This document shows, piece after piece, positions 8,718 to 15,966 of a stretch of DNA of 17,118 bases; position 1 is the first letter of the stretch, and every line of letters begins with the position of its first letter. Position numbers and translations under genes: made by a program. The notes under the pieces were generated by a model. The model had not been told where the DNA came from. It saw nothing but the letters and a program-made list of their open reading frames with translations, and searched no databases. Origin of the DNA: Hyphomicrobiales bacterium. GTDB taxonomy: Bacteria > Pseudomonadota > Alphaproteobacteria > Rhizobiales > Xanthobacteraceae. The DNA is taken from positions 1 through 17,118 of the forward strand of contig JACQDO010000056.1 of the NCBI GenBank assembly GCA_016201085.1, read 5' to 3'.

Positions 8718-9605
8718 ATGCGCTTCGACTTCACCGATCTCAACCTGTTCCGCCACATCGTGGAGGCGGGCAGCATCACCCATGGCGCGGCGCGCTCGAA
8801 CCTGGCGCTGGCCGCAGCCTCCACGCGCATCCGCAAAATGGAACAGGCATTCGGAGCCACGCTGCTGGTGCGTGGGCGTCAGGGCGTCGTACCGACCCAG
8901 GCCGGCCGCACTTTGCTGCAACACACGCGTGTGATCCTGGCGCAGTCCGAACGCCTGAAGGAGGATCTGTCGCCCTATGCGCGCGGGCTGGCCGGCCAGG
9001 TGCGCGTACTGTCCAATACCAATGCGCTCACCGAATTCCTGCCCGAGACGCTGAGCTCGTTTCTCACCACCTATCCCGACATCAGCGTGGACCTGGAGGA
9101 GCGACTCTCCGACGAGATCGTCGGACTGATCGCGGAAGGCGCCGCCGATATCGGCATCGTCGCCGGCACGGTGGACTACGGCGGCCTGCACACGTTTCCG
9201 TTCCGCAGCGACCGCTTCGTGCTGGTGGTGGCGCGCAATCATGCGCTCGCCAGCCGTTCGCGCATCGGCTTTGCCGAGGTGCTCGACTACGACATGGTGG
9301 GCCTGGATCGCGCCAGCGCGATCCAGCGCTTTCTCGCCGACAAGGCGAGCCGCATCGGCCGCGCCATCCGTCTGCGCGTGCAGTTGCGCTCATTCGACGC
9401 GATCTGCCGCCTGGTCGAATGCAATGTCGGCGTCGGCATCGTGCCGGAGACCACGGTGCAGCGGGCGGCGCGTACCATGGCGATCAACGCCGTGCGGCTG
9501 AGCGATTCCTGGGCGCCACGCGAATTGACCATCTGCGTGCGCGCCGTCGAGGCGCTGCCGCCCTATGCGCGGCAGTTGCTGGATCATTTGAAGGCGAGTG
9601 CTTAG
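8718..9605 (+). CDS. LysR-family transcriptional regulator
   Basis: 295 residues, the normal family length. The N-terminal winged helix-turn-helix spans about residues 5-65 (TDLNLFRHIVEAGSITHGAA...AASTRIRKMEQAFGATLLVR), ending with the usual PTQAGRTLL. A linker helix to about residue 90 leads to the inducer-binding domain (VRVLSNTNALTEFLP..., then two Rossmann-like lobes). The ligand cannot be predicted. The gene is divergent from sdhC, 325 bases away, and its stop directly abuts the stop of mesaconyl-CoA hydratase (9605/9606). The sdh operon and the hydratase gene are both possible targets, but neither is shown. An AGAAGG ribosome site lies about 11 bases before the ATG. Confidence 0.9.
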   Translation: MRFDFTDLNLFRHIVEAGSITHGAARSNLALAAASTRIRKMEQAFGATLLVRGRQGVVPTQAGRTLLQHTRVILAQSERLKEDLSPYARGLAGQVRVLSNTNALTEFLPETLSSFLTTYPDISVDLEERLSDEIVGLIAEGAADIGIVAGTVDYGGLHTFPFRSDRFVLVVARNHALASRSRIGFAEVLDYDMVGLDRASAIQRFLADKASRIGRAIRLRVQLRSFDAICRLVECNVGVGIVPETTVQRAARTMAINAVRLSDSWAPRELTICVRAVEALPPYARQLLDHLKASA

Positions 9606-10670: not shown

Positions 10671-10824
10671 TGAACTGATTCCTTCATGCGGTCTTGCTCG
10701 ATGCGGCATTCTCACAAAACCGTGAGGCGAACGCCAGCTTCCGACAACGGGAAACTGATGAGGACGTGTTTAACCCTTGTGCTAGCGAATACAGCGCAAA
10801 TTCAATCTTCCTGGAGGACGAAAA

Positions 10825-11079
10825 ATGAAAAAGAACATCCTGCTTTCCGCCATTCTGTCGGGCGCAATCGCGGCCGGTATCGCCATGGCGCCGGCGGCCT
10901 ATGCGGCGGACGAGATGAAGAAGGACACCATGTCCAAGGATAATATGTCAAAGGATTCGATGAAGAAGGACACGATGTCGAAAGATACCATGTCCAAGGA
11001 TATGATGAAGAAAGACGACGCCATGTCCAAGGACAATATGTCCAAAGACAATATGTCCAAAGACAACATGAAGAAATAA
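10825..11079 (+). CDS. Secreted methionine-rich pentapeptide (MXKDX) repeat protein
   Basis: 84 residues. A Sec signal peptide (MKKNILLS...APAAYA) should be cut after residue 27. The mature 57 residues are almost wholly a repeat of M-[SK]-K-D-x, about ten units, with 12 methionines (21%). This matches the family known as pentapeptide MXKDX repeat protein. GGAGG (10813-10817) lies seven bases before the ATG. The protein precedes a cytochrome b and a YedY-like molybdoenzyme on the same strand. In Azospira a Met-rich periplasmic peptide (MrpX) beside yedY1 and yedZ1 quenches hypochlorite by reversible methionine oxidation, and this peptide may do likewise. The underlying DNA shows a near-15-base periodicity from tandem duplication. 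Confidence 0.85.
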   Translation: MKKNILLSAILSGAIAAGIAMAPAAYAADEMKKDTMSKDNMSKDSMKKDTMSKDTMSKDMMKKDDAMSKDNMSKDNMSKDNMKK

Positions 11080-11085
11080 ATCGCT

Positions 11086-11121
11086 CGCCGCCGGGTTCAT
11101 GCATTCAGGGGCCCGGCGGCG
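11086..11121 (+). terminator. GC-rich hairpin between MXKDX gene and cytochrome b gene
   Basis: CGCCGCCGGG (11086-11095) and CCCGGCGGCG (11112-11121) pair perfectly over ten bases, with a 16-base loop. It starts seven bases after the MXKDX stop. No T-run follows, so it may act as a partial terminator or as an mRNA stabiliser that makes the short peptide message more abundant than the downstream enzyme genes. TATAAT (11125-11130) follows at once, but no good -35 is visible. Confidence 0.45.
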
Positions 11122-11158
11122 GCATATAATGGCCAACCGCCTGGATCGGACATTGACC

Positions 11159-11788
11159 ATGAGCGTGGAAACGGCAGTCGGTGGCAGTCAGATCGCGGCG
11201 CGCGAGGCCATTCATCCGGCCTGGGTGCGCGTCACCCATTGGATCAACGCGATCGCGATCCTGGTGATGATCGGCTCCGGCTGGCAGATCTATAATGCCG
11301 CGCCGCTGTTCGACGGCCTCCGCTTCGCCAAAAGCATTTCGCTCGGCAACTGGCTGGCCGGCGCCTTGCTCTGGCATTTCGCCGCCATGTGGGTGCTGGC
11401 GATCAACGGCCTCGTCTATGTGACGCTCGGCATCCTGAGCGGCCGTTTCCGCCGCAAGCTGTGGCCGATCAGCCCGGCACAAGTATTGGCCGACGCCAAG
11501 GCGGCGCTCAGCTTCAAGCTCTCGCACGATGATCTGTCGCGTTACAACGCGGTGCAGAAGCTGCTCTATGCCGGCGTCATCCTCGCCGGCATCGTGATCG
11601 TGCTATCGGGCCTGGCGATCTGGAAGCCGGTGCAGTTGCAGGAACTGACCGCGCTGTTCGGCGGCTACGATGCGGCGCGCTACGTGCATTTCTTCGCCAT
11701 GGCCGCGATCGTCGGATTCCTGGTCGTGCATGTGGCGCTGGCGCTGATCGTGCCGAAGAGCCTGCGCGCCATGATCACAGGCCAATAG
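11159..11788 (+). CDS. Four-histidine membrane cytochrome b (b561/Ni-Fe-hydrogenase-type)
   Basis: 209 residues with four transmembrane helices. H27 (WVRVTHWINA), H73 (LLWHFAAMW), H177 and H191 (YVHFF...VVHVAL) are placed as the bis-heme ligands of the cytochrome b561/Cyt_b-N family. This membrane subunit would pass electrons between the quinone pool and the periplasmic molybdoenzyme encoded 11 bases downstream. It is not the six-helix YedZ/MsrQ type. ATG 11159 is preferred over ATG 11129 since the latter overlaps a TATAAT sequence; neither has a strong ribosome site. It is probably co-transcribed with the next gene. Confidence 0.85.
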   Translation: MSVETAVGGSQIAAREAIHPAWVRVTHWINAIAILVMIGSGWQIYNAAPLFDGLRFAKSISLGNWLAGALLWHFAAMWVLAINGLVYVTLGILSGRFRRKLWPISPAQVLADAKAALSFKLSHDDLSRYNAVQKLLYAGVILAGIVIVLSGLAIWKPVQLQELTALFGGYDAARYVHFFAMAAIVGFLVVHVALALIVPKSLRAMITGQ

Positions 11789-11799
11789 GGGAGGTCGAG

Positions 11800-12573
11800 A
11801 TGCGTCAGCGCAAAATTATCCCCGGCGTCGATCCGCAGCTGCTGATCAAGGATGCCGCCAAGTTGATGCCCGACGCCTCCCGGCGCGGCTTCCTGCGCGG
11901 CGCCGCCAGCCTGGGCGCGCTCGCCTTCCTCACCGGCTGCGACATCGTCGACGGCGACACCGCCGAAGGCGTCTTGCGCAAGATTTCTTCGTTCAACGAC
12001 GGCGCGCAGGCCGCGCTGTTCAACCGCGGCAAACTGGCGCCGACATTCCCCGAAAGCGCCATCACCCGGCCGTTCCCGTTCAACGCCTATTACGACGAGG
12101 ACGAGGCGCCGGAGGTCGACGGCAACAGCTACAAACTCGAAGTCGCCGGTCTGGTCGACAACAAGAAGCCGTGGACGCTCTCCGAGCTGCACGCGCTGCC
12201 CGAGGTGTCGCAAATCACCCGCCATATCTGCGTCGAAGGCTGGAGCGCCATCGGCTCCTGGCAGGGCACGCCGCTGTCGGAATTCCTCACGCGCATCGGC
12301 GCCGACACCCGCGCCAAATACGTCTGGTTCAAATGCGCCGAGGGCTACAGCAACACCATCGACATGCCGACCGCGCTGCATCCGCAGACGCAGATGACCT
12401 TTAAATACGCCAACAAAATCCTGCCGCGCGCCTACGGCTTCCCGATGAAAATCCGCATCCCCACCAAGCTCGGCTTCAAGAACCCGAAATACGTGGTGGC
12501 GATGGAAGTGACCAATACCGACAAAGGCGGCTATTGGGAGGACCGGGGCTACAACTGGTTCAGCGGGCTGTAG
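11800..12573 (+). CDS. Tat-exported molybdopterin oxidoreductase of the sulfite oxidase / YedY (MsrP) fold
   Basis: 257 residues. The N-terminus holds a twin-arginine motif SRRGFLRG (R28-R29) and a lipobox-like LTGC (C47), so the protein is probably exported folded, with its cofactor, and lipid-anchored. RHICVEGWSAIGSWQG places C144 as the molybdenum-coordinating cysteine, as in YedY's R-x-x-C-V-E-x-W-S. The C-terminal YGFPMKIRIPTKLGFKNPK completes the fold. Homologues reduce methionine sulfoxide (MsrP) or oxidise sulfite; the substrate is unknown here. GGGGAGG precedes the ATG. A diverged copy of the last 50 residues is found at 15128-15280. Its 3' end overlaps the converging AlgJ-like gene by 14 bases. 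Confidence 0.85.
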   Translation: MRQRKIIPGVDPQLLIKDAAKLMPDASRRGFLRGAASLGALAFLTGCDIVDGDTAEGVLRKISSFNDGAQAALFNRGKLAPTFPESAITRPFPFNAYYDEDEAPEVDGNSYKLEVAGLVDNKKPWTLSELHALPEVSQITRHICVEGWSAIGSWQGTPLSEFLTRIGADTRAKYVWFKCAEGYSNTIDMPTALHPQTQMTFKYANKILPRAYGFPMKIRIPTKLGFKNPKYVVAMEVTNTDKGGYWEDRGYNWFSGL

Positions 12574-13630
12574 CGCTCGCCTCGGGCATCTGTTTCAGGT
12601 TCCAGCAGAACATAAAGCGCTCGGTCGGCACCAGGATGACGATGTCGGGCGCCTGCGCGGTCACGACCTCCGGGATGAAGTCGCACATCTCGTGATGGAT
12701 CCAGACCAGCCGGCCGACGTGCAGGCCGAAATAGTCGCGCCAGGCATGCTCGGTGAACGAATCGCCCACCAGCAGCACGCGCGGACCGCTTCGGTCGCTG
12801 TCGGTGACAAAACCGCCGGTCTCGCGGCCGGTGTCGAGCTTGCGCTCGGTGAGCTTGGGCGCGCCGAGCATGCGCGCGAGATCGCCGCCCTTGGTCTTGG
12901 CAAAACCGCGGAACACGCGTTGCGGATCGATGCGCCAGTCCGGCTTGCCGAGCTTGGCGACCAAGGCGTTGTAGGCGAGCAGTGCGCCCAGCCGATTCCA
13001 ATGGGTGTCGCCGCGCCGGAACAGCGGATGGCGTTCGGCTTCCGCGATCAGCGCCGCCCGCAGATCGGCAAAGGGCACGCCGCGCGCGGCCAGCGCCGGC
13101 AGCATCGCGTCATATTCGGTCGGCGGCTTCGGCTTGAACCAAGGCGGCACGGTATCGCGAACGACGCTGGTGCTGTTGGGCGCAATCGCCACCAGGAAGC
13201 CTATGCCCTGGGCGCGGTAGTTCGCCTGCAACGCCGCCGCGAAATCGGCGAAGCGAGCGATATCGGCATGACGCTGCATCAGCCCCAAGGACTGCTCCAG
13301 CATGCCGTCGCCGTTGAAGAACAGCGCGCGGTTGCGACCATAGAGCACGCGCAGATCGGTCGGCGACACCAGGGTGTAGCGCAGCACGGCATTGGCGCGC
13401 ACCAAGGTCTCGCGCAGCCCGAAATGGTCGGTAATGAAGGCCTCGGTTGCCTTCGGCAACGCGCTCCATTGCGCCAGCGTTCGCGGCCACGCCGGTAGCG
13501 GCGCCAGCCGCCGGTTTTCGCGTGCGGACAGCATCTCGCGCGGCATGATCGCCTGAATCAGCATCGGCAACGACAGCAGCGCCAGCGCTATCGCGATCCA
13601 CCAGCGGCGATGACGTGCGAGCAAGCCCAT
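12560..13630 (-). CDS. AlgJ/AlgX-like SGNH O-acetyltransferase, periplasmic
   Basis: 356 residues with one N-terminal membrane anchor (about 9-28) and a periplasmic SGNH-hydrolase-like domain. The catalytic motifs of the alginate-type acetyltransferases are visible: DTHW (D208-H210) and, in inverted order as usual for the family, GDSF (D290-S291). With AlgI-type MBOAT proteins such enzymes move acetyl groups to secreted polysaccharides; which polymer is modified here cannot be told because no glycosyltransferase is nearby. The gene begins three bases after the MBOAT gene, indicating an operon. There is no signal-peptidase site, so it likely stays membrane-bound. Confidence 0.85.
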   Translation of the reverse strand: MGLLARHRRWWIAIALALLSLPMLIQAIMPREMLSARENRRLAPLPAWPRTLAQWSALPKATEAFITDHFGLRETLVRANAVLRYTLVSPTDLRVLYGRNRALFFNGDGMLEQSLGLMQRHADIARFADFAAALQANYRAQGIGFLVAIAPNSTSVVRDTVPPWFKPKPPTEYDAMLPALAARGVPFADLRAALIAEAERHPLFRRGDTHWNRLGALLAYNALVAKLGKPDWRIDPQRVFRGFAKTKGGDLARMLGAPKLTERKLDTGRETGGFVTDSDRSGPRVLLVGDSFTEHAWRDYFGLHVGRLVWIHHEMCDFIPEVVTAQAPDIVILVPTERFMFCWNLKQMPEASATAR

Positions 13631-13633
13631 CGT

Positions 13634-15028
13634 TCAGAACCTGAAATACAGGAAGGGGCTGTAAGAGCCCGCGGCCGCGCTCAACAAGGTCAGCGCCAGC
13701 ATCAATGACGTCACCACGGTGTCGGCGAGCGGCCACAGCGAGCGCCAGGCGCTGCGCGGCAGTCCGCGCCAGCGCACCAGCGCCAGCACGGCGCCGATCG
13801 CCAGCGCGGCCACGGTGGTCGGATAGATCGCCAGATGCGCCGGCAGGCCGATCTCGCTGACGCCGTTGCGGCCGATCAGCCCGCCGAAGAAGTCGAGCGC
13901 ATGCGCGAAATCATGCGAGCGGAACCACACCCAGCTGCTCATCACCGCCAGCAGTGCGTAGAGCCGCGCCACCAATACCGGTGAGCGCGCAAGCCAGCGG
14001 CCGAGACCCATGCGCTCGACCATCAGAAACAATCCGTGGTGCGCGCCCCATACCACGAAGGTCCAGTTGGCGCCGTGCCACAGGCCGCACAGCAGGAACA
14101 CCAGACAGAGATTGCGGTAGGTGGCGAGTTCGCCGCCGCGATTGCCGCCAAGCGGGATGTAGAGATAGTCGCGCAGCCACTGCGACAGGCTGATGTGCCA
14201 GCGCCGCCAGAATTCGGTGATCGAGCGCGACGTGTAGGGGAAATTGAAATTGCGCGGAAAACGCAGACCGAGCGCGAGGCCGAGCCCGATCGCCATGTTG
14301 GAATAGCCGAGGAAATCGAAATAGATCTGGATCGTATAGGCGCTCAGCCCGAGCCAGGCTTCCGTCATGCTCGGCGCGACGACATGATCGAATACCTGAT
14401 CGGCAATGCGCGCCACTTCGTCGGCGATCAGCACCTTCTGCGCCAGACCGACGATGAAGATGCGCAATCCCGCCGAGCCGCGCCCGAGCGTCATGCGCCG
14501 CTCACCGAGCCTGCGCGCGATGGTGTGGTAGCGGATGATCGGGCCGGCGACGAGCTGCGGAAACATCGCGATATAGACGGCGACCTGCAGCAGGCTGCGA
14601 TTGGCGCGCACGTCGCCGCGGTAGATATCGACCAGGTAGGAAATCGAATGGAAGGTGAAGAACGAGATGCCGAGTGGCAGCGCCAACCCCGGCAGCGTGA
14701 AGCGCCAGAGGCCGACGGCATTGAGGCTGCCGACGACGAAATCGGCATATTTGAACACGCCGAGCATCAGCAGATTGACGCTGACGCCAAAGGCAATCGC
14801 CGCCAAGCGGGCGCGGCCGCTGCGCGCATCGATGGCGAGCGCGATCAGATAGTTGAAGGCGATCTGGCCGGCCAGCACCAGCACGAACCAGGGTTCGCCC
14901 CAGGCATAGAAAATCAGCGAGGCGGCCAGCAGGCAGGCGTTCTTCGCCGTAATTCCGGGCGCCGCGCCATAGGCGATGCAGAACAGCGGCAGGAAATAGA
15001 ACAGGAAAGGGACTGAGGAAAAAACCAT
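13634..15028 (-). CDS. MBOAT-family O-acyltransferase (AlgI-like)
   Basis: 464 residues with about ten transmembrane helices, a normal length for AlgI/DltB-type MBOAT proteins. The conserved blocks FWRRWHISLSQWLRDYLYIPLGGNRGG (H278) and LCGLWHGANWTF (H318, the catalytic histidine) are intact, as is GLRFPRNFNFPY. The protein would transfer an acetyl group across the inner membrane for the partner AlgJ-like enzyme just downstream. A nearby motif reads YFDFLGYSNMA where SGYSDMA is more usual, a modest change. It starts next to the molybdoenzyme remnant. No strong ribosome site is seen. Confidence 0.88.
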   Translation of the reverse strand: MVFSSVPFLFYFLPLFCIAYGAAPGITAKNACLLAASLIFYAWGEPWFVLVLAGQIAFNYLIALAIDARSGRARLAAIAFGVSVNLLMLGVFKYADFVVGSLNAVGLWRFTLPGLALPLGISFFTFHSISYLVDIYRGDVRANRSLLQVAVYIAMFPQLVAGPIIRYHTIARRLGERRMTLGRGSAGLRIFIVGLAQKVLIADEVARIADQVFDHVVAPSMTEAWLGLSAYTIQIYFDFLGYSNMAIGLGLALGLRFPRNFNFPYTSRSITEFWRRWHISLSQWLRDYLYIPLGGNRGGELATYRNLCLVFLLCGLWHGANWTFVVWGAHHGLFLMVERMGLGRWLARSPVLVARLYALLAVMSSWVWFRSHDFAHALDFFGGLIGRNGVSEIGLPAHLAIYPTTVAALAIGAVLALVRWRGLPRSAWRSLWPLADTVVTSLMLALTLLSAAAGSYSPFLYFRF

Positions 15029-15127: not shown

Positions 15128-15280
15128 CTTGCGCGCGCCTACAGCTTACCGATGAAGCTCCGCATCCCCACCAGGCTCGGCTGCATGAACACGAAGTACG
15201 GGGTGGCGATGGAAGTCACCAACACCGACAAAGGCGACTATTGTAAGAAGCAGGGCTACAATTGGTTCAGCCGGTTGTGA
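15128..15280 (+). pseudogene. Truncated, diverged copy of the C-terminus of the molybdopterin oxidoreductase
   Basis: This stretch aligns without any gap to 12421-12573, the last 50 codons of the molybdoenzyme gene, with about 25 differences in 153 bases by hand count (about 84% identity). The translation ARAYSLPMKLRIPTRLG...KGYNWFS-type tail is recognisable, but key residues have changed (F to C, P to T, W to C, three lysines in a run). It has no upstream catalytic part. It is read in the same direction as the intact gene, with the acetylation cassette between the two copies. It looks like the remains of a second gene copy, or a scar of recombination. The 100 bases before it (15029-15127) hold nothing recognisable. 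Confidence 0.75.
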
Positions 15281-15283
15281 GTT

Positions 15284-15691
15284 CTACGAGGAGATAAAGG
15301 GATTCAGCAACTTCACACCGAATTCCTTGAAGTCCTTCACGTTCCGCGTGACGACAATGAGCCCATGCAATCTGGCTGTCACTGCAATCATGGCGTCCTC
15401 GATCAGCGAGTCGGGTCGCCCATGCATCAGCTTGCCCCACAGGCGAAACGCGGCGGCATCCATTGGCAACACGTTCAATGTGGCGGCGACCTGATCGGCC
15501 CAAGCTTCGATCTCGGCGGCCTTATGCGCATCCTGGTCGCGGGTAACCTCGATCCCAGTTTGAATTTCGCCAAGTGTAACGGCTGAGAGGTGGAGATGCC
15601 GGTCGTCCACGCTGCGTATCCAAGCGATGACGGCACCGTGAGGCTTCGACTTTCGCAGTTCGGAAACCACGTTGGTATCGAGCAGATACAT
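15284..15691 (-). CDS. vapC: VapC-type toxin, PIN-domain ribonuclease
   Basis: 135 residues, typical for the family. The four acidic metal-binding residues of the PIN domain are in place: D5 (LLDTN), E42 (TLGEIQTG), D99 (IEDAMIA) and D120 (TRNVKDF). It should cleave RNA (often tRNA) when freed from its antitoxin. It starts seven bases after the antitoxin stop on the same strand. The toxin looks intact and sits beside a gene remnant, as toxin-antitoxin pairs often do in variable regions. Confidence 0.9.
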   Translation of the reverse strand: MYLLDTNVVSELRKSKPHGAVIAWIRSVDDRHLHLSAVTLGEIQTGIEVTRDQDAHKAAEIEAWADQVAATLNVLPMDAAAFRLWGKLMHGRPDSLIEDAMIAVTARLHGLIVVTRNVKDFKEFGVKLLNPFISS

Positions 15692-15697
15692 GCGCGC

Positions 15698-15955
15698 CTA
15701 TCCAACGCGCTCAGGCCGGCGCCGCTTACGCTTTCCGCGCGGCGGAATATTCAGTTCGCCGCGGGCGAAGTCGGTCAGCAGGAGGTCCTTTAGGGTGGGC
15801 CGGCTGTCGTTAGCAAGCCGTTGCCATTGCTCGATCGGCACCAGGACGGCTGCGTCAACGCCGCGCCGGGTGACGAGTTGCGGTCCCTTTTTCAGGCAGG
15901 CATCGAGCATCTCGCTGAAACGCGCTTTGGCATCCTGCACCGGCCAGATTTTCAT
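15698..15955 (-). CDS. Phd/YefM-type antitoxin
   Basis: 85 residues from ATG 15955, with AGAAGG about nine bases upstream; a GTG at 15964 is a less likely start. The N-terminal AKARFSEMLDACLKKGPQLVTRRGVDAAVLVPIEQW is the Phd/YefM DNA-binding fold. The C-terminal part (DLLLTDFARGELNIPPRGKRKRR) would fold on binding and cap the VapC active site. It stops seven bases before vapC, so the two are one operon. A repeated operator lies right upstream (15967-15989), where the antitoxin and the complex should repress transcription. Confidence 0.88.
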   Translation of the reverse strand: MKIWPVQDAKARFSEMLDACLKKGPQLVTRRGVDAAVLVPIEQWQRLANDSRPTLKDLLLTDFARGELNIPPRGKRKRRRPERVG

Positions 15956-15966
15956 GGCAGCCACCT

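Follow-up and report, generated by a model that had tools for sequence, protein, structure and literature searches.

The window analysed here, a stretch of 17,118 nucleotides that forms one contig of a draft genome of 3.66 Mb with 88.6% completeness, carries three consecutive genes on one strand. In a protein search, the highest-ranked match bearing an organism name came from a Pseudolabrys MAG. They code for a secreted MXKDX peptide, a four-histidine cytochrome b561 and a YedY/MsrP-like molybdoenzyme (Table 1). These genes had been proposed earlier from the sequence alone, and matches to TIGR02953, PF01292 and PF00174 confirm all three at their places. The start codon of the peptide gene follows the sequence TGGAGGA. 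A signal occupies approximately residues 1–27 of the peptide (assigned by eye), and the other 57 residues, presumably the mature part, contain 12 methionines. This count reproduces the 21% methionine claimed by the sequence-only reading. The presumed mature peptide contains ten M-x-K-D units and is devoid of Cys, His, Trp and Tyr. The start of the cytochrome gene is uncertain, because the alignments of its relatives begin near position 11159. The four His columns are 99.6–100% conserved among 230 relatives, which bears out the earlier description of a four-His b561-type protein. These histidines are candidate haem ligands and would be enough for two haems. The gap between the cytochrome and enzyme genes measures 11 bp.

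Table 1. Features of the three-gene unit (positions in the window)
Feature	Position	Strand	Basis or remark
Inverted repeat TCACAAAACCGTGA, possible operator	10712–10725		may serve the divergent MaoC-type gene instead
Secreted MXKDX peptide gene, 84 aa	10825–11079	+	NCBIfam TIGR02953, 86.1 bits (cut-off 41)
GC-rich stem-loop between peptide and cytochrome genes	11083–11123	+	no U-tract
Four-His cytochrome b561 gene	11099–11788 (true start possibly ~11159)	+	PF01292, 91.6 bits; four His columns
YedY/MsrP-like molybdoenzyme gene, predicted Tat lipoprotein	11800–12573	+	PF00174, 95.9 bits
Twin Arg (residues 28–29) to lipobox Cys47 (LTGC, Asp at +2)	11881–11940	+	R[R/K] plus lipobox pattern
Cys144-Val-Glu146, presumed Mo ligand and neighbour	12229–12237	+	C[VI]EGW in 236 of 236 loci

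Of the solved structures, E. coli YedY (1xdq) matches the enzyme best in sequence; its CVEAW aligns with the CVEGW of the window protein. Among the chains printed, sulfite oxidases contain Cys-Ala-Gly-Asn (1ogp) or Cys-Ser-Gly-Asn (2ca3 and kin) at this site. The family profile scores 94.9 bits against 1xdq and 68.4 bits or less against the sulfite oxidases. The C-x-E site shared with 1xdq and the preference of the profile for this structure favour sulfoxide reduction as the activity. The window enzyme scores 72.2 bits with the MsrP model NF003767, far under the cut-off of 207, 37.4 bits with the SorA model (cut-off 600) and 33.5 bits with the SoxC model (cut-off 420). It is 52% identical to an enzyme from an E. 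coli plasmid, 57% to one from Burkholderia and 54% to one from Rahnella. Judged by these identities, the common C[VI]EGW motif and the lipobox, the four proteins belong to the same subfamily. The combination of R[R/K] with a lipobox recurs in 233 of 236 distinct loci, and 136 of these 233 contain Asp at +2. By the rules for Tat lipoproteins, the twin Arg, the lipobox and the Asp at +2 suggest that the molybdoenzyme is tethered to the inner membrane beside its cytochrome.

We also considered a canonical MsrP elsewhere in the genome, but the sole further PF00174 match is SoxC (contig C155 of G000, locus L263), flanked by genes that resemble SoxB and SoxD (names assigned by eye). With this arrangement, the organism probably oxidises reduced sulfur. 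Within the window, an AlgX-like gene (PF16822) and an MBOAT gene (PF03062), together an alginate-type acetylation pair, run convergent to the enzyme gene (12560–15028, reverse strand). Beyond this pair lies a forward-strand remnant of 49 codons (15128–15274) with 69% identity to the 3′ end of the molybdoenzyme gene, probably a decayed second enzyme copy. A PIN/Phd-YefM toxin–antitoxin pair is found at 15284–15964 (reverse strand). In another locus (L221), what appears by eye to be this toxin–antitoxin pair lies behind the enzyme gene.

Linkage of the cytochrome–enzyme pair to other genes

Genomes were searched with the enzyme at thresholds of E 1e-20 for the window's family (149 genomes) and E 1e-15 for its order (150) and phylum (299). 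The enzyme is present in 100, 35 and 58 of these genomes, respectively. Loci were picked by similarity to the window enzyme. A named set was picked by similarity to an alignment led by a relative (L084) and consists of the best 80 of 587 candidate loci. Counting only loci with an enzyme match of at least 80 bits, we found that all 246 loci, 236 of them distinct, have a b561-type cytochrome directly upstream on the same strand.

For the peptide we counted secreted open reading frames with at least 10% methionine beside the pair, with signal peptides called by a crude hydrophobicity rule. At least 500 bp had to be readable on each side, which removed 3 of 104 family loci, 2 of 47 order/phylum loci, 6 of 80 named loci and both loci from the MXKDX search. 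A methionine-rich secreted frame accompanies the pair in 55 of the 74 readable named loci (best 80 of 587), 50 times downstream and 6 times upstream. The corresponding counts are 10/45 for the order/phylum set, 3/3 for plasmids and 9/101 for the window's family, where the peptide is thus a minority partner. Per kilobase, the slots beside the pair contain 0.482 such frames in the named set (best 80 of 587), as compared to 0.010 at a greater distance on the strand of the pair and 0.024 on the opposite strand. The same three densities are 0.158, 0.028 and 0.041 for the order/phylum set and 0.062, 0.009 and 0.026 for the family. Methionine-rich frames beside the pair therefore exceed chance, with a smaller excess in the order/phylum and family sets. 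The sequence-only reading had staked its proposal on co-occurrence beyond this lineage. Such co-occurrence is wide, as the named and order/phylum counts show, and the proposal is not refuted.

Named alpha-, beta- and gammaproteobacteria also have these genes linked, in two orders, peptide–b561–enzyme and b561–enzyme–peptide. The peptide precedes b561 in most peptide-bearing loci of the window's order, though not in L055, and follows the enzyme in most named loci (best 80 of 587). On a FastTree tree of 223 enzymes, peptide presence changes at least 15 times. A b561–enzyme–peptide string with a methionine-rich peptide was also seen on a contig binned as a Desulfobulbus MAG (L166), possibly by a binning error.

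In the 150-genome order sample, 10 genomes contain both an MXKDX protein and the enzyme, as compared to 4.05 expected (Fisher p 0.0012, with kinship ignored). Three weak enzyme rows (G003, G055 and G121) were left out of the carrier count. Three counts speak against a dedicated peptide cycle. The pair is without a methionine-rich frame in its slots in 92 of 101 family loci and in 19 of 74 named loci (best 80 of 587). The two genes are adjacent in only 4 of the 10 genomes of the order sample that have both. Finally, the enzyme is absent from 9 of the 19 MXKDX genomes in this sample, one of which (G121) has one of the weak, uncounted rows. From the few adjacent pairs and these nine genomes we conclude that MXKDX proteins also serve elsewhere. 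For 15 MXKDX loci that lack the pair within approximately 1.5 kb, inspection of the neighbouring genes by eye revealed no common theme.

The slot before b561 is also used by another protein in the window's family, probably Xanthobacteraceae. A FAS1 (fasciclin) gene occupies it in 38 of 101 readable family loci, as compared to 9 with the methionine-rich peptide. The assignment to PF02469 is based on a match of 119.9 bits in L023. We considered whether FAS1 might itself be a methionine-rich protein, but its median methionine content is approximately 3% (42 loci). One locus contains both partners: in L025 the end of a FAS1 gene is followed by the peptide, b561 and the enzyme. In three further loci (L221, L223 and L184) a Cu/Zn superoxide dismutase gene lies directly before b561 (PF00080 confirmed for L221). 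In 18 of 104 family loci SodC lies no more than 700 bp downstream of the enzyme, on the same strand, and in 4 it is found 1.1–1.5 kb upstream; the search gave no SodC match in its other loci. Strings of the type FAS1–b561–molybdoenzyme–SodC occur in L041, L042, L045, L049, L183, L186 and others. In the window's genome (88.6% complete) SodC is present elsewhere, and FAS1 has no match.

Relation to known systems

The sequence-only reading had described the unit as a distinct variant in which b561 replaces YedZ/MsrQ as the electron donor. Since b561 immediately precedes the enzyme in all 246 loci compared, the E. coli plasmid included, this partner is the rule among them and we reject the notion of a distinct variant. 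The other part of the earlier proposal, that a methionine-rich peptide would be kept reduced by a YedY-type enzyme through a membrane cytochrome b, stands as a plausible interpretation. PF01292 was found in the cytochromes of the E. coli plasmid (97.7 bits), Burkholderia, L084 and the Rhizobium-like L266.

With E. coli MsrPQ the window unit shares the Oxidored_molyb domain and the C-V-E site. Unlike MsrP, which is a soluble enzyme, the window protein is a predicted lipoprotein, and it reaches 72 of the 207 bits required by the MsrP model. The adjacent partner also differs: MsrQ carries a ferric-reductase domain, whereas the adjacent partner in the window is b561, for which no such domain is listed. 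Another parallel is Azospira suillum MrpX-YedY1, in which a methionine-rich periplasmic peptide reportedly serves as a hypochlorite sink together with a YedY-type reductase, and which is said to be under SigF/NrsF control. The window unit likewise combines a methionine-rich secreted peptide with a YedY-type enzyme. An Azonexus MAG (L121), from the same order as Azospira, contains b561 and the enzyme with a methionine-rich MxKD-type peptide. A protein search with the Azonexus cytochrome returned no Azospira name among the best 120 of 8000 matches, most of them without an organism name.

The E. coli plasmid unit (L100; from a healthy person) consists of b561, enzyme and methionine-rich peptide, with a two-component system divergent from them. 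A chromosomal unit (L285) has the same gene order, is approximately 74% identical in DNA among the matches listed, and includes a gene annotated as cytochrome b/b6. Among 5,426 E. coli genomes, 350 match the unit, and for 348 of them the match spans 80% or more of the query. The cytochrome gene (L285, 1189–1787) carries a frameshift annotation in E. coli ATCC 25922. The gene content of the E. coli unit is that of UPEC c3564-c3568. The UPEC study lists c3566 as "cytochrome B", calls C3568 an MrpX homologue and describes c3566 and c3567 mutants as sensitive to tert-butyl hydroperoxide (PMC8550376). Like UPEC c3566-c3568 and the plasmid relative, the window unit comprises b561 (PF01292 in L100), the enzyme and a methionine-rich peptide. 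In contrast to the window, the E. coli peptide is encoded last and not first, and the regulation there is by a two-component system.

In Rhizobium sp. BT03, genes annotated as NrsF and a sigma factor lie divergent from genes for an MXKDX protein, cytochrome b/b6 and a molybdopterin protein. L266 has the same layout (NrsF 218.5 bits, b561 94.5 bits), and by eye L265, L267 and L268 resemble it. This is the layout of Brucella bcrS-abcS and bcrXQP. According to the Brucella report, bcrXQP is cotranscribed, is induced by HOCl and adds to HOCl resistance in vitro, and in the model proposed there BcrX acts as a sink that BcrPQ restores (PMC8315932). For an MXKDX peptide, the model of the sequence-only reading had thus been published before. 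The same report states that bcrS and bcrXQP are not needed for mouse infection, an observation that counts against the cycle (PMC8315932). As in Brucella melitensis BcrXQP, the MXKDX gene of the window comes first, followed by the membrane partner and the molybdoenzyme, and re-reduction of the peptide is proposed (PMC8315932). Unlike in Brucella, no divergent ECF16 sigma/anti-sigma pair lies alongside the window unit. BcrQ is called an MsrQ homologue by the authors (PMC8315932), whereas BT03, whose genes are laid out alike, has a cytochrome b/b6 gene at this place, and L266 has PF01292 there.

It is therefore well supported that the window unit is an ordinary member of a known and widespread MrpX/BcrXQP kind and not a distinct variant. 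The comparison also suggests that the methionine-rich-peptide cycle of Azospira, Brucella and UPEC commonly runs on a b561-type cytochrome and the lipid-anchored YedY subfamily. Since b561 is present in every locus compared, what the literature calls an "MsrQP homologue" may in some cases use another electron donor.

Proposed cycle and rival readings

How might these three proteins work together? We hold it to be moderately probable that they form an envelope methionine-sulfoxide cycle of the MrpX-YedY1/BcrXQP kind. The Met/Lys/Asp peptide would be exported, and its methionines would be the first to be oxidised by hypochlorite or similar oxidants. The lipid-anchored YedY-like enzyme would draw electrons from the quinol pool through b561 and use its Mo-Cys site to turn the methionine sulfoxide of the peptide back to methionine. 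From gene content, linkage and conserved sites we infer which oxidant acts, which way electrons flow, what the enzyme reduces and that it is anchored in the membrane. This cycle is supported by the finding that methionine-rich frames are more frequent beside the pair than in the flanks in the named, order/phylum, plasmid and family sets, and by the two gene orders together with the repeated changes of peptide presence on the tree. The regulators also point in this direction: NrsF and a sigma factor accompany MXKDX–b561–enzyme in Rhizobium sp. BT03, as they do in the HOCl-induced bcrXQP system, and a two-component system accompanies b561–enzyme–peptide in E. coli, as in UPEC c3564-c3568. In 25 of 104 family loci a Cu/Zn superoxide dismutase gene is found close to the pair, which adds support, as do the MsrP-like C-x-E motif and the presence of a separate SoxC for sulfite in the genome.

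The family loci also fit a broader function, in which the pair mends many oxidised periplasmic proteins in the manner of MsrPQ, and the peptide or FAS1 is a co-regulated client and not a sink. The 92 family loci without a methionine-rich neighbour, the frequent FAS1 protein with its low methionine content and the superoxide dismutase gene that follows the enzyme in 18 loci agree with such general envelope repair. We nevertheless consider it unlikely, because it leaves unexplained the methionine-rich peptides at 55 of 74 named loci (best 80 of 587), which are mostly beta- and gammaproteobacterial. The FAS1 protein in the slot and the SodC that often follows point to envelope oxidative stress with exchangeable partners. 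One could go further and suppose that b561 and the lipoprotein YedY form a generic envelope reductase with an exchangeable slot, and that the FAS1 proteins serve this MetSO reductase as dedicated clients or as sinks for oxidants. We offer this idea tentatively and regard it as somewhat doubtful. If true, it would give this envelope protein family a function. It predicts that FAS1 proteins and SodC belong to one envelope oxidative-stress module in the window's family. In the literature collection searched, we found no paper that joins at least three of the four terms fasciclin, cytochrome b561, molybdopterin and methionine sulfoxide. The exchange of partners around a constant b561–YedY core is what remains of interest beyond the known kind.

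Binding of Cu(I) or another metal by the methionines of the peptide, kept reduced by the redox pair, is a further and quite improbable reading. A weak MXKDX-like match (L018, 21.6 bits, below the cut-off) adjoins a gene that we take to be DUF692-like. According to one study, E. coli msrPQ is regulated together with copper pump genes, and its authors propose a functional connection with CusF, a Met-dependent chaperone (PMC9302797). Against metal handling, the window peptide is free of Cys and His, and the peptides of the readable named loci (best 80 of 587) contain 0.6% Cys and 3.0% His among their presumed mature residues. In addition, no copper-annotated gene occurs in the annotated stretches, including the E. 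coli plasmid and chromosome and Rhizobium sp. BT03. Very improbable, in our view, is a sulfite dehydrogenase that passes electrons via b561 to quinone next to an unrelated peptide. PF00174 is common to sulfite oxidases, and S. meliloti SorT is described as ECF-controlled and sulfite-responsive (PMC3511301). The MsrP-like C-x-E motif in all 236 loci argues against this function, as do the better profile match to 1xdq than to sulfite oxidases, the low SorA and SoxC scores, and the separate SoxC in the genome.

Regulatory and transcript features

SigF/NrsF (ECF16) control of the methionine-sulfoxide cycle, also considered for the window unit, was rejected: NrsF has no match in the 88.6% complete genome, which counts against the cycle. 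This type of control is not universal, since UPEC uses a two-component system. The only regulator identified near the unit is a LysR-family gene (8718–9605), which likewise counts against the cycle. A promoter resembling that of Brucella (GTAAC-N13-18-CGAA) occurs upstream of 1 of 9 family peptide loci, 1 of 26 FAS1 loci and none of 52 other loci.

Other upstream patterns were picked after viewing the same sequences, and kinship alone can conserve them; 26 FAS1 loci had enough upstream sequence. TCAC-N4..8-GTGA, the pattern behind the possible operator at 10712–10725, is found in 7 of the 9 family peptide loci, in 6 of these 7 at −106 to −128, as compared to 1 of 26 FAS1 loci and 3 of 52 loci with neither partner. 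Shuffles of the nine sequences gave a mean of 0.15 and a maximum of 2. The FAS1 loci have a pattern of their own: GAAAC-N15-18-CGTA lies upstream in 25 of 26, and a GTTTC/GAAAC inverted repeat in 21 of 26; both patterns are absent from the 9 peptide loci and from the 52 loci with neither. In B. japonicum, an inverted repeat with GAAAC has also been reported in front of ecfQ, an H2O2-inducible sigma factor gene (PMC3420878).

The whole gap between the peptide and cytochrome genes (11080–11158) has a minimum free energy of −36.2 kcal/mol (z −2.0, 200 shuffles). In 19 peptide-first loci the median z of this gap is −2.0, with 9 of 19 under −2, as compared to a median of approximately −0.8 for the control, the 80 nt before the first gene. 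FAS1-locus gaps have a median z of −3.3 (41 loci), a value not directly comparable because these gaps are longer (median 202 nt vs 96 nt). This modest evidence makes it possible that the stem-loop is a 3′ stabiliser or a partial terminator that favours the peptide transcript. Such an element could allow the cell to make more peptide than enzyme.
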